This document shows, one piece after another, positions 9,736-42,386 of a stretch of DNA of 64,000 nt. Position 1 is the stretch's first letter. Every line of letters starts with the position of its first letter. This DNA is from Solirubrobacteraceae bacterium (GTDB taxonomy: Bacteria; Actinomycetota; Thermoleophilia; Solirubrobacterales; Solirubrobacteraceae). The stretch covers positions 1-64,000 of the forward strand of contig JANJTP010000070.1 of NCBI GenBank assembly GCA_024711025.1. Direction: 5' to 3'. The notes under the pieces are model-generated. The model saw only the letters and a list, made by a program, of their open reading frames with translations. It was not told the origin of the DNA and did not search any database. Position numbers and translations under genes: made by a program.

Positions 9736-10701
9736 ATGAGGAAGCTCCGCTCGCGCGGTGCGACGGCGGCGTTGCTCGCGGCGCTGACGACGCTCGCCCT
9801 GGCGACCGGGCCGGCACACGCCGCGACCGAGGTGGACGTCTCGATCGGATCGCCCGGCGACGTGCTCGTCGTCAAGGGCGCCGTCCATCTGCGCTCCGGC
9901 GAACGGGCGGACACGATCGCGATCGTCGACGGGCCGGTGACGGTCGCCCGCGGCGCAACGGTGACCGGCGACCTCTTCTCCGTCGACGGCGACGTGCGAA
10001 TCGACGGCACGGTCCGGGGGCGCGTCGTCACGATCGGCGGACGCGCGCGTGTGGGCGGAACAGGGGTCGTCGGCGACGGCATCCGCTACGTCGAGTCGAG
10101 GCCGGTGGTCGCCCCCGGCGCAAACGTCGGCGGGACGATCGAACGGCTCGAGCTCGACTTCGGCGGCGCGGCTCCGTTCGTCTCGTGGCTCGCCTGGTGG
10201 CTCGCCGTCGGCGTCTCCACGCTCGTCTTCGGCCTGCTGGCGCTATGGCTCGCTCCCCGCGCAGCGGATGCCACGTTCACACGGATGCGCGACGGCGGCT
10301 GGGGGCCGGCGATCGGCATCGGGTTCGTCGTCTTCATCGGCCTGCCCGTGCTCGCGTTCATCGCGCTCGTGACGCTCGTCGGCATCCCTCTCGGCATCGG
10401 CTTGCTGCTCGCGCTGCTGCCGCTCGGCGCTCTGGGCTACGTCACGTGCGCCTGGGTGCTCGGTCGAGCGCTCGTCGGCCCGCCGCGCGGCCGCGCCGTC
10501 GCGTTCCTCGCAGGCTGGGGCGTGCTGCGCCTCGTCGCGCTCGTGCCGGTGCTCGGCGTACTCGTCTTCCTCGTTGCCGTGATGTTCGGCCTCGGCGCCT
10601 TGACCTGGGCGATCTGGCAGGCGCGCGGCGAAGGCGCGGGACCGTCGGCACCCCTGGCTCCGGCAGGCGGCCCCGAGGCGCCGACCGCGCCGACAATCTG
10701 A
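9736..10701 (+). CDS. Bactofilin-like membrane protein with polymer-forming N-domain
   Basis: This 321-aa protein has a signal peptide (about residues 1-30, AHA-A cleavage-like site), then a repeated beta-helical region typical of polymer-forming/bactofilin domains (VVKGAVHLRSGERA, GPVTVARGATVTGDLFSVDG, GTVRGRVVTIGGRARV). About four transmembrane helices follow (near 155-175, 197-222, 225-245 and 262-290), and the tail is Pro/Ala-rich. Similar actinobacterial proteins are uncharacterised. ATG 9736 lacks a strong ribosome site. It is divergent from the aldo/keto reductase across 156 bp. Confidence 0.8.
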   Translation: MRKLRSRGATAALLAALTTLALATGPAHAATEVDVSIGSPGDVLVVKGAVHLRSGERADTIAIVDGPVTVARGATVTGDLFSVDGDVRIDGTVRGRVVTIGGRARVGGTGVVGDGIRYVESRPVVAPGANVGGTIERLELDFGGAAPFVSWLAWWLAVGVSTLVFGLLALWLAPRAADATFTRMRDGGWGPAIGIGFVVFIGLPVLAFIALVTLVGIPLGIGLLLALLPLGALGYVTCAWVLGRALVGPPRGRAVAFLAGWGVLRLVALVPVLGVLVFLVAVMFGLGALTWAIWQARGEGAGPSAPLAPAGGPEAPTAPTI

Positions 10702-11048
10702 CGGTGTCGCGGGTGCGCGCGGCACCCGCGGCACCCGCGCGAAGACGCGCGAAGACGCGCGGAGACGCGCCCAACGGCGAGCAAACGACAACGGCCGCCG
10801 CTGTCACGGGGCGCGCAGCGAGGCGCCCACGACCCACCCGGTGAGGCGCCCGCCCACGGGGCGCGCAGAACGGCGGCCCGGCGCAAGAGCACCGTATGGC
10901 GCTTACGCAGGGACTGCCCGAGCCGCCCGTGAGTAACCCAGCCGCTGTGGCTCGGCCTGCCCGAGCCCGGGTGGGTCTGCATCCGCCCGAGGCGCCCGTG
11001 AGAACCCAGCCACTGTGGCTTTCGTGAAGCTCGCGACTCGTTTCTCGT

Positions 11049-11094
11049 ACCGCTCTGCGCAGACCACACCGAAGCGTGGTCTTCGCAGAGCGGT
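11049..11094. other. Long stem-loop, 19-nt arms
   Basis: The arm ACCGCTCTGCGCAGACCAC (11049-11067) pairs with GTGGTCTTCGCAGAGCGGT (11076-11094), with one mismatch and an 8-nt loop. No T-run follows on either strand, so a simple intrinsic terminator is not obvious. A structured RNA, a bidirectional terminator or a small mobile remnant are alternatives. Confidence 0.8.
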
Positions 11095-11120
11095 GCGCGG
11101 GAGACTCACCCAGATCGACG

Positions 11121-11330
11121 TTCGCCACACGAGCCGCACGATCACCGACGCGTTCGCCACACGAGCCACGCAATCATCGACGCGTTCGCCACACGAGCCA
11201 CGCGATCACCGACGCGTTCGCCACATGAGCCGCGCGATCACCGACGCATTCGCCACACGAGCCACACGATCGCCGCGCCACACGAGCCGCACGATCACCG
11301 ACGCGTTCGCCACACGAGCCGCGCGCCCCC
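11121..11330. repeat. 32-bp tandem repeat array
   Basis: The TTCGCC core recurs at 11121, 11153, 11185, 11217 and 11249 with an exact 32-bp period. A shortened unit follows, then another copy begins at 11306. Each unit starts TTCGCCACACGAGCC and ends near CGATCACCGACGCG. As 32 is not a multiple of three and frames shift between units, the array is not coding. It ends about 180 bp before the kinase start. Confidence 0.92.
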
Positions 11331-11505
11331 AGACGCCACAGCTGTCAGCGTTCGCGGCGAGACACCGATCGATGCGCCCGCGCGGACGACGCGTGCGGCG
11401 CCGCGACTCCAGCGGCCGAGAGTGCGCCCGCGACGCCGCTTCGCGCCTATCTTCTCTCGAGCGCGCCGCATGCTGCCCGCGGCGAACGGTGCCACACGCC
11501 CCGGC

Positions 11506-40872: not shown

Positions 40873-42386
40873 CTCAACAGCAGAGCGACTGCAGCGACGG
40901 GATCGGCGACGTCGAGGCCACCCTCGAGCGAAACGCCCTCGGCCAGCAGCGAGAGCGGCGGCCCGCCCGTCATCGAGGGCTCGATCGCAGCGCCGGCGAG
41001 CAGCGTCTCGTCGAGGTGGGTTATCGCCAGCGCCGCCGGCTTCAGCGGCCCGAAGCCCTCCATCAGCACGTGCGCCGCGCTCGCGCCGAGCGTTCCCGGC
41101 ACGCAGAGCTGGACCTCGGCGCGAAGCTTGGCGAGATCGGCTGCCAGCTCACCGACCCCGGCCGCGTCGACGGGAGAGACGGAGGTCGTGTCGACGAGAA
41201 CGAGGGCATCCGGTCCGGCCCCCTCGATCAGCTTCCGGGCAGCGGCGGCCGTCTTGGCGACATCGACCGGGATCTCGAACGGCGAGAGCAGCGCTGCGAG
41301 ACGCTCGCCGCCGTCGACGGGGCGCAGCGCGATCACGGCGACCGGCTGGTCGCTGCGCGTGGCGTAGGCGCGGGCCAGCCGGGCGACGGTCAGCGTCTTG
41401 CCCACGCCGCCGGCGCCGGCGAAGGCGATGACGGCGCCGCCGCGTGCACGCAGCGGCTGGACCGCCACGCGGCGCGCGAGCGCGCGGCGCACGAGCCGCC
41501 GAAGCTGGCGCGGGGTGCCGAAAGGCAGCAGATGGGTGACGGTCTCGGCGACGACGGCCGCCGCGAGCGCCGGGCTCAGCCCCCCTTCGACGAGGGCGGC
41601 CTCGAGGGCGTCGGCGGCGGCAGGACGGCGACCGGCGAGCTCGACGGCGACCGGTGCTTCCGGCTCCGCGACCAGATCGATGGCAACCCCCACCTCCCGC
41701 TCGACCGCCGACCCGACGGCAACCCCCACCTCCCGCTCGACCGCCGACCCGACGGCAACCCCCACCTCCCGCTCGACCGCCGGCCCGACGGCAACCCCCA
41801 CCTCCCGCTCGTCCGCCGGCTCCGCCGCGCCGACGTCGGGATCGAGCGTCGCCGGCAGCAGCGCCTGGGCCTCCGCGACCGCGAGCTGGTCGGCGAACGG
41901 CGACGCGGAGGCGACCAGGGCGCGGACGACCGGCGCGCGCATGCCCTCGTCGATCGCCTCCGCGGCCTCGCTGCGAACCGCCGAGGCATCTGCCCACGAG
42001 GACCCGGAGCCGAGATCGCCGAACGCCTCGCCGGACGGACCGCCGGAACCCAGATCGTCGAACGCCTCACCGGACGAACCGCCGGAACCCAGATCGCCGA
42101 ACGCCTCGCCGGACGAACCGCCGGAACCCAGATCGCCGAACCCCTCGCCGCCCCGACCGCCGGAGCCGAGATCGTCGTAGGTGTCCACGCGCGGCGCCCC
42201 GGCGCGGGCCTCGACCTCGATGCAGCGGCGCTGGAAGAACCCGGCGATCCCGCCGGTGACCCCGTCGCGGCGGCGCAGGACGACGGCGTCGGGACCGAGC
42301 CGCTCGCGGATCTGGGGCAGCAGGTCCTCCAGGCTGCGGCCGCGGAACAGCGTGATGTCGTTCTGGATGTGGGCTGCGGTGCTCAT
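40869..42386 (-). CDS. flhF: Flagellar GTPase FlhF with repeat linker
   Basis: This 505-aa SRP-type GTPase specifies flagellar placement and number. The N-terminal basic B domain (about 1-65, DITLFRGRSLEDLLPQIRER) is followed by two low-complexity repeat blocks: DLGSGGSSGEAF units (72-129) and EREVGVAVGSAV units (192-235). The G domain has P-loop AGAGGVGKT (324-332), LVDTTSVSP in place of DTxGR, and ITHLDE in place of TKLDE. ATG 42386 overlaps flhA. FlhG/YlxH is not in the window. Confidence 0.9.
   Translation of the reverse strand: MSTAAHIQNDITLFRGRSLEDLLPQIRERLGPDAVVLRRRDGVTGGIAGFFQRRCIEVEARAGAPRVDTYDDLGSGGRGGEGFGDLGSGGSSGEAFGDLGSGGSSGEAFDDLGSGGPSGEAFGDLGSGSSWADASAVRSEAAEAIDEGMRAPVVRALVASASPFADQLAVAEAQALLPATLDPDVGAAEPADEREVGVAVGPAVEREVGVAVGSAVEREVGVAVGSAVEREVGVAIDLVAEPEAPVAVELAGRRPAAADALEAALVEGGLSPALAAAVVAETVTHLLPFGTPRQLRRLVRRALARRVAVQPLRARGGAVIAFAGAGGVGKTLTVARLARAYATRSDQPVAVIALRPVDGGERLAALLSPFEIPVDVAKTAAAARKLIEGAGPDALVLVDTTSVSPVDAAGVGELAADLAKLRAEVQLCVPGTLGASAAHVLMEGFGPLKPAALAITHLDETLLAGAAIEPSMTGGPPLSLLAEGVSLEGGLDVADPVAAVALLLR
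41682..41813. repeat. 36-bp in-frame repeats, flhF block 2
   Basis: About four near-identical 36-bp units (each containing ACCCCCACCTCCCGCTCG) encode the EREVGVAVGSAV repeats of FlhF. Being multiples of 12 codons, copy-number changes would keep the frame. Confidence 0.9.
42000..42173. repeat. 36-bp in-frame repeats, flhF block 1
   Basis: About five degenerate 36-bp units (each containing CCGGAACCCAGATCG or a close variant) encode the DLGSGGSSGEAF repeats. It is independent in sequence from block 2. Confidence 0.88.

Follow-up and report, generated by a model that had tools for sequence, protein, structure and literature searches.

The window analysed here is a stretch of 64,000 nucleotides from the genome of a Solirubrobacteraceae bacterium. 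A gene-free tract of about 800 bp lies in it between the end of an upstream gene (10701) and the ATG of a downstream Ser/Thr protein kinase gene (11506). This agrees with the earlier note, which had placed a 32-bp tandem array in such a tract ahead of a kinase gene, and the Pfam match of the kinase confirms the identity of that gene. No homologue of the upstream gene was found in 40 relatives. The kinase homologues are all distant (best 46–51% identity, Solirubrobacterales and Thermoleophilia first and other phyla after), and no orthologous intergenic gap was obtained through them. Judged by the closest of them, the organism would itself belong to the Solirubrobacterales or Thermoleophilia. 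The features of the tract and its flanking genes are listed in table 1.

Table 1. Features of the intergenic tract upstream of the kinase gene (window coordinates).
Feature	Position	Strand	Basis
Upstream gene, 321 aa, no Pfam match	9736..10701	+	coding by codon model
118-bp near-palindromic four-box element	11013..11130	.	R2 model match, 77.3 bits, E 2.5e-21 (model includes this copy itself); gapless alignment with 13 other copies
Box 1 (outer), CTGTGGCTTTCGTGAAGC	11013..11030	+	PWM score 14.6
Spacer 1, 15 bp, near-random sequence, fixed length	11034..11048	.	column information, 14 copies
Central inverted repeat around boxes 2 and 3, 22-nt arms, 91% complementary, 8 nt between	11046..11097	.	
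Box 2 (inner), GTGTGGTCTGCGCAGAGC on minus strand	11052..11069	-	PWM score 19.2
Box 3 (inner), GCGTGGTCTTCGCAGAGC	11074..11091	+	PWM score 19.8
Spacer 2, 15 bp	11095..11109	.	column information
Box 4 (outer, right end), GTGTGGCGAACGTCGATC on minus strand	11113..11130	-	PWM score 23.0
32-bp tandem array, seven units (one 25-bp step)	11119..11336	-	repeat finder, core scan, lagged self-identity
Ser/Thr protein kinase gene, 545 aa	11506..13143	+	Pkinase PF00069, E 8.4e-48

Tandem Repeats Finder reports the array at 11119–11322 (period 32, 6.6 copies, score 289), and an overlapping row carries it on to 11336. The units are mutually diverged (84% matches). Their core, CGCCACACGAGCC, starts at 11123, 11155, 11187, 11219 (with one mismatch), 11251, 11276 and 11308, giving five steps of 32 bp and one of 25 bp; it occurs nowhere else in the 64-kb window at up to one mismatch. 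The lagged self-identity of the intergenic gap reaches 0.81, a value that none of 300 first-order Markov simulations approached (0.55 at most), and the array is real, far above chance. It is also non-coding, the codon-model scores being below zero in all six frames, and its units stand head to tail with no spacers, which upholds the earlier view that it is not a CRISPR. A genome search with the array, a check that the earlier note had proposed, found it to be single in its 3.1-Mb genome; two weaker matches there (L002 and L003, 71 and 80% identity) and those in relatives such as L004 carry no array. The divergence among units and the position of the array well inside a 157-kb contig make an assembly artefact unlikely. 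Taken alone, the array is an ordinary minisatellite. Two further strong tandem arrays lie in the window, one at 41678–41818 (period 36, score 261) and one at 42004–42174 (period 39, score 258); both periods are divisible by three, so these arrays are possibly coding.

The earlier note, whose feature spanned 11121–11330, had overlooked a 118-bp palindrome at 11013–11130, most of which lies outside that interval. A genome search with its central inverted repeat returned dispersed partial homologues, and these led to a common end motif, GTGTGGNGANCGTC, which has 76 matches in the genome at up to one mismatch, compared with 12 for the reversed control. Paired end motifs were found exactly 118 bp apart. 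Fourteen copies of the element, in either orientation, align without gaps, with a mean identity of 59% (48–69%). Two decayed copies come in addition to these: the fifteenth, C12b, in which one base is inserted and an end has decayed, and the partial C68. The total is 15 full copies and one partial copy, counted within a restricted set of scored candidates. When a model was trained on 12 copies, it picked up two others that it had not been given, C21 at E 3.1e-17 and C14b at E 1.8e-15. Copies C12a and C12b have similar left halves and lie 5.3 kb apart, flanking an IS66 transposase gene and a PIN-domain gene (L070:1382-6839; C12:81381-86838). To the left of the window copy, a second direct-repeat pair was observed at 10916–11020, formed by GCCCGAGSCGCCCGTGAG and AACCCAGCCRCTGTGGCT, 68–69 bp apart; its second copy extends into box 1.

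Every gapless copy carries an 18-bp box, with the consensus GTGTGGNSWWCGYCRANC, at columns 1(+), 40(-), 62(+) and 101(-), the single exception being one inner box of C51 that falls under the score threshold. The layout is 57 + 4 + 57 bp, each half being a pair of facing boxes; in the dispersed intergenic element, one inverted box pair is separated from the other by 4 bp. Conservation is very unevenly distributed in the 14 copies: the 30 spacer columns (22–36 and 83–97) hold 3.8 bits of information and the columns outside them 88 bits. Identity between copies within the spacers is 0.354, against a random expectation of 0.313, and there are no spacer indels among the 14 copies. The boxes and their spacing were kept while the spacers drifted to near-random sequence.

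The dyad symmetry was examined for signs of base pairing. In the full hairpin 65.1% of cells are paired, and shuffling the partners between copies gives 64.7%; in the two-hairpin form (within box pairs) the figure is 54.0%, with 55.2% for shuffles. Sliding of the pairing partners lowers pairing to 32–43%. Pairs changed on both sides are slightly raised (33 versus 28.4; 18 of 500 shuffles), this being one of five measures. The symmetry appears to belong to the consensus and not to covariation, and it looks like DNA–protein recognition rather than an RNA or single-stranded DNA hairpin; in the absence of covariation of base-pair partners, we read it as that of a protein-binding site. Compared with shuffles, the minus strand of the array folds less well (z +2.9), while folding of the plus strand together with the element is better by a small margin (z -1.8); neither array nor element has a passing match in Rfam. 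The earlier suggestion that the array might be a source of structured RNA finds no support in these results, and for the element we reject such a reading on the pairing controls and Rfam.

The distribution of the element is narrow. With 25–150 candidates scored per genome, convincing copies are absent from sixteen genus mates and from nearly all of 146 family genomes. The single other carrier found is genome G152, from another genus of the same family, in which at least four loci were found. Its boxes, such as GTGCGGAACGTCGACCTCG, alternate in orientation, and its facing cores have the form CGTCGANCTCG-N15-CGAGNTCGACG, with a 26-bp offset identical to that in the window genome. The distances between facing cores are 26 bp (16 pairs) or 86 bp (11 pairs) and none otherwise, which corresponds to a strict 60-bp period. 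The box pairs occur as dimers and as arrays of up to five pairs, and two arrays ending near contig ends may be one long array. Near a 60-bp box-pair array, G152 also has a separate tandem array (34 bp, 4.9 copies) upstream of a DUF4386 gene (L130:420-585).

Wider searches gave no further carriers. An exact 22-base geometric pattern, which fits 9 of the 12 model copies and would miss the G152 geometry, has no match in 85,000 genomes or in IMG/VR; the G152-type core pair has none in IMG/VR, and plasmid and phage sequences gave no BLAST match. Among the model matches in other relatives, one (G019 C41) looks by eye like arginyl-tRNA synthetase coding sequence, and those with E above about 1e-4 are at noise level. 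In a genome of the same order (G057, L087:1540-1590), a tight and apparently intergenic palindrome, TTGACCACACCTGGGTGTGGTCAA, resembles the centre of the element, with a similar 4-bp middle; the outer boxes are absent.

All 15 copies are intergenic. Gene orientations were taken from a heuristic home-made caller, partly confirmed by Pfam; by these calls, none of the approximately 13 copies with both neighbours called lies in a divergent gap and five lie in convergent gaps, whereas 5 of the 12 gaps of at least 150 bp in the window are divergent. For most copies the nearest gene 3' end is roughly 80–450 bp away. The neighbouring genes are functionally mixed (bipA, release factor 1, metK, pilM/pilD-like, glutamate dehydrogenase and others), with no partner gene common to all copies and no Y1 transposase among the scanned flanking genes. 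Copy C60 lies directly upstream of an AbiEi_4/DUF559-type gene (PF18741 and PF04480; L214:2155-3296), and the G152 copy C269 lies directly upstream of an AbiEi_4 gene (L238:1-800). From these two post hoc cases, an AbiEi_4/DUF559 (MTES_1575)-type gene is a possible partner nuclease of the element.

The relation between element and array is visible at their junction, where box 4 of the window copy supplies the start of array unit 1. Each intact array unit combines GTGTGGCGAACG (minus strand), which makes up the first 12 bp of the right-end box, with roughly 20 bp of flanking sequence; after these 12 bp a 2-bp insertion sets the unit off from the box, and the units score under the full-box threshold. 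The right-end box and its flank have been tandemly duplicated into the 32-bp array, most likely and most simply by replication slippage. Extra end boxes are also found to the right of C13 (strong, score 21.7) and of C61a, C12b and C14a (weaker), so that the element seems prone to duplicating its end box over and over. It is unlikely that the array is an ordinary minisatellite unlinked to the palindrome, with unit 1 overlapping the right end by coincidence. Other intergenic tandem repeats do exist in the group, such as the 34-bp array of G152, and beside other copies, but the motif repeated here is the 12-bp box at the exact right end of the 118-bp element, and the extra end boxes of other copies are also on the right side.

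The element resembles several known systems in form. ERIC or RU-1 sequences of Enterobacteriaceae are 127-bp intergenic repeat units whose mover is unknown (PMC2759123). The element shares with them, in form only, the dispersed intergenic near-palindrome of about 120 bp (118 bp here, in 14 gapless copies), but it is built of four boxes, its spacers keep their length with an almost random sequence, and its hairpin partners do not covary. REPs are single-strand stem-loops, usually present in more than 100 copies per genome (PMC2817692, PMC3116915), with RAYT genes beside them (PMC2817692), and BIMEs have been reported as protein-binding sites (PMC2817692, PMC3116915). Common points with this group are the inverted doublets outside genes, the TGTGG head, which resembles some Pseudomonas REP heads, and, as in BIMEs, the regular alternation of boxes (26 and 86 bp with period 60 in G152; +,-,+,- in the window genome). 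In contrast to REPs, BIMEs and REPINs, there are only about 15 copies, and pairing within box pairs is not above shuffles. MITEs and Correia-type elements are likewise short, with terminal inverted repeats and no coding capacity; here, however, no identical 3–9 bp flanks indicative of target-site duplication were found in the 14 copies. A TGTGG-N-N-AA core in defined orientations and spacing also recalls the DnaA box clusters of datA, DARS and oriC. DnaA boxes have an A directly after TGTGG. Unlike such TTATNCACA-type 9-mers, the element boxes almost never have A in this place (none of the 24 outer boxes and one of the 24 inner ones; position 7 is A in 1 of 48 boxes), and their conservation reaches on to CGYCRANC. 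The 32-bp array belongs with bacterial minisatellites (VNTRs), but its unit goes back to an end box that is part of a dispersed element. No published report of the element for this group was found in the open-access literature.

We consider that the element is probably a lineage-specific palindromic repeat, dispersed between genes and similar in form to ERIC and BIME sequences, that has been kept as a putative protein-binding site, with the array as a slippage product of its end. Its four rigidly spaced boxes, each about 18 bp long, would most likely be recognised as double-stranded DNA by a multimeric sequence-specific protein. Copies would have spread among intergenic gaps in ancient times, avoiding sites between divergent promoters. 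Through the array, partial boxes would be lined up at intervals of three helical turns; these may hold extra protein weakly or do nothing: as 32 bp is about three turns, bound proteins would lie on one face, and as the units are below the full-box threshold, they may be unbound. The interpretation in the earlier note is partly supported, since its idea of multimeric protein-binding sites points the right way inasmuch as the array repeats the end box of a putative multi-site protein-binding element. The lack of convincing copies in the sixteen genus mates and in nearly all of the 146 family genomes, at 25–150 candidates scored per genome, weakens our explanation, being odd for a functional site kept for a long time.

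This explanation leaves the mechanism of spreading unspecified and overlaps with a reading that we hold to be a serious competitor, though with somewhat less than even chances, in which the element is a small non-autonomous mobile element (MITE, ERIC or REPIN type) served by a trans-acting enzyme. The boxes would be enzyme-binding ends, the copies relics or slow movers and the array end debris. The dispersed intergenic copies with terminal inverted repeats, the patchy range over two genera of the family with genus mates lacking copies, and the copy upstream of an AbiEi_4/DUF559-type gene in both carriers, which recalls RAYT genes beside REPs (PMC2817692), are in its favour. Yet no copy has a target-site duplication, the near-random spacers argue against a recent burst, hairpin pairing is unsupported and the DUF559 link consists of two cases. 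Slightly less probable, in our view, is a site under selection and now immobile, with a role in regulation or in the organisation of the chromosome (as an operator, nucleoid or segregation site). The constant length of the 14 copies despite near-random spacers and the recurrence of the 26-bp core offset in another genus (G152) would fit such a site, but the neighbouring genes have no function in common, few copies are in promoter positions and the genus mates lack the element. More speculative, and rather improbable, is an undescribed dispersed DNA element, restricted to one bacterial family and defined by its geometry (two facing box pairs, a core offset of exactly 26 bp, free spacers of 15 bp) more than by its sequence, which a multimeric protein reads and moves or organises; this protein would perhaps be an AbiEi/DUF559-type nuclease like those encoded beside copies in both carrier genera, and tandem arrays such as the 32-bp one would be by-products. 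A transcription terminator or structured RNA, with the palindrome acting as an RNA hairpin at gene 3' ends, is very improbable. It would account for the strong central hairpin of the window copy and for the avoidance of divergent gaps; covariation and an Rfam match are both absent, however, most copies stand some 80–450 bp off the nearest 3' end, and the central hairpin is not among the called terminator-like sites.

ERIC- and REP-like dispersed palindromes are known mainly from proteobacteria, and to our knowledge what maintains ERIC-type repeats is still open. In the actinobacterial palindrome family described here, the spacers are near-random, and their length has not changed by a single base in 14 copies; this drift at constant length points to selection on a DNA–protein complex. 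The putative binding protein of the element should be findable by a simple affinity pulldown. An intergenic minisatellite also gains a concrete origin, in the stuttering of an element end, and the importance of the array is that it leads to a dispersed element with four boxes in a rigid arrangement.
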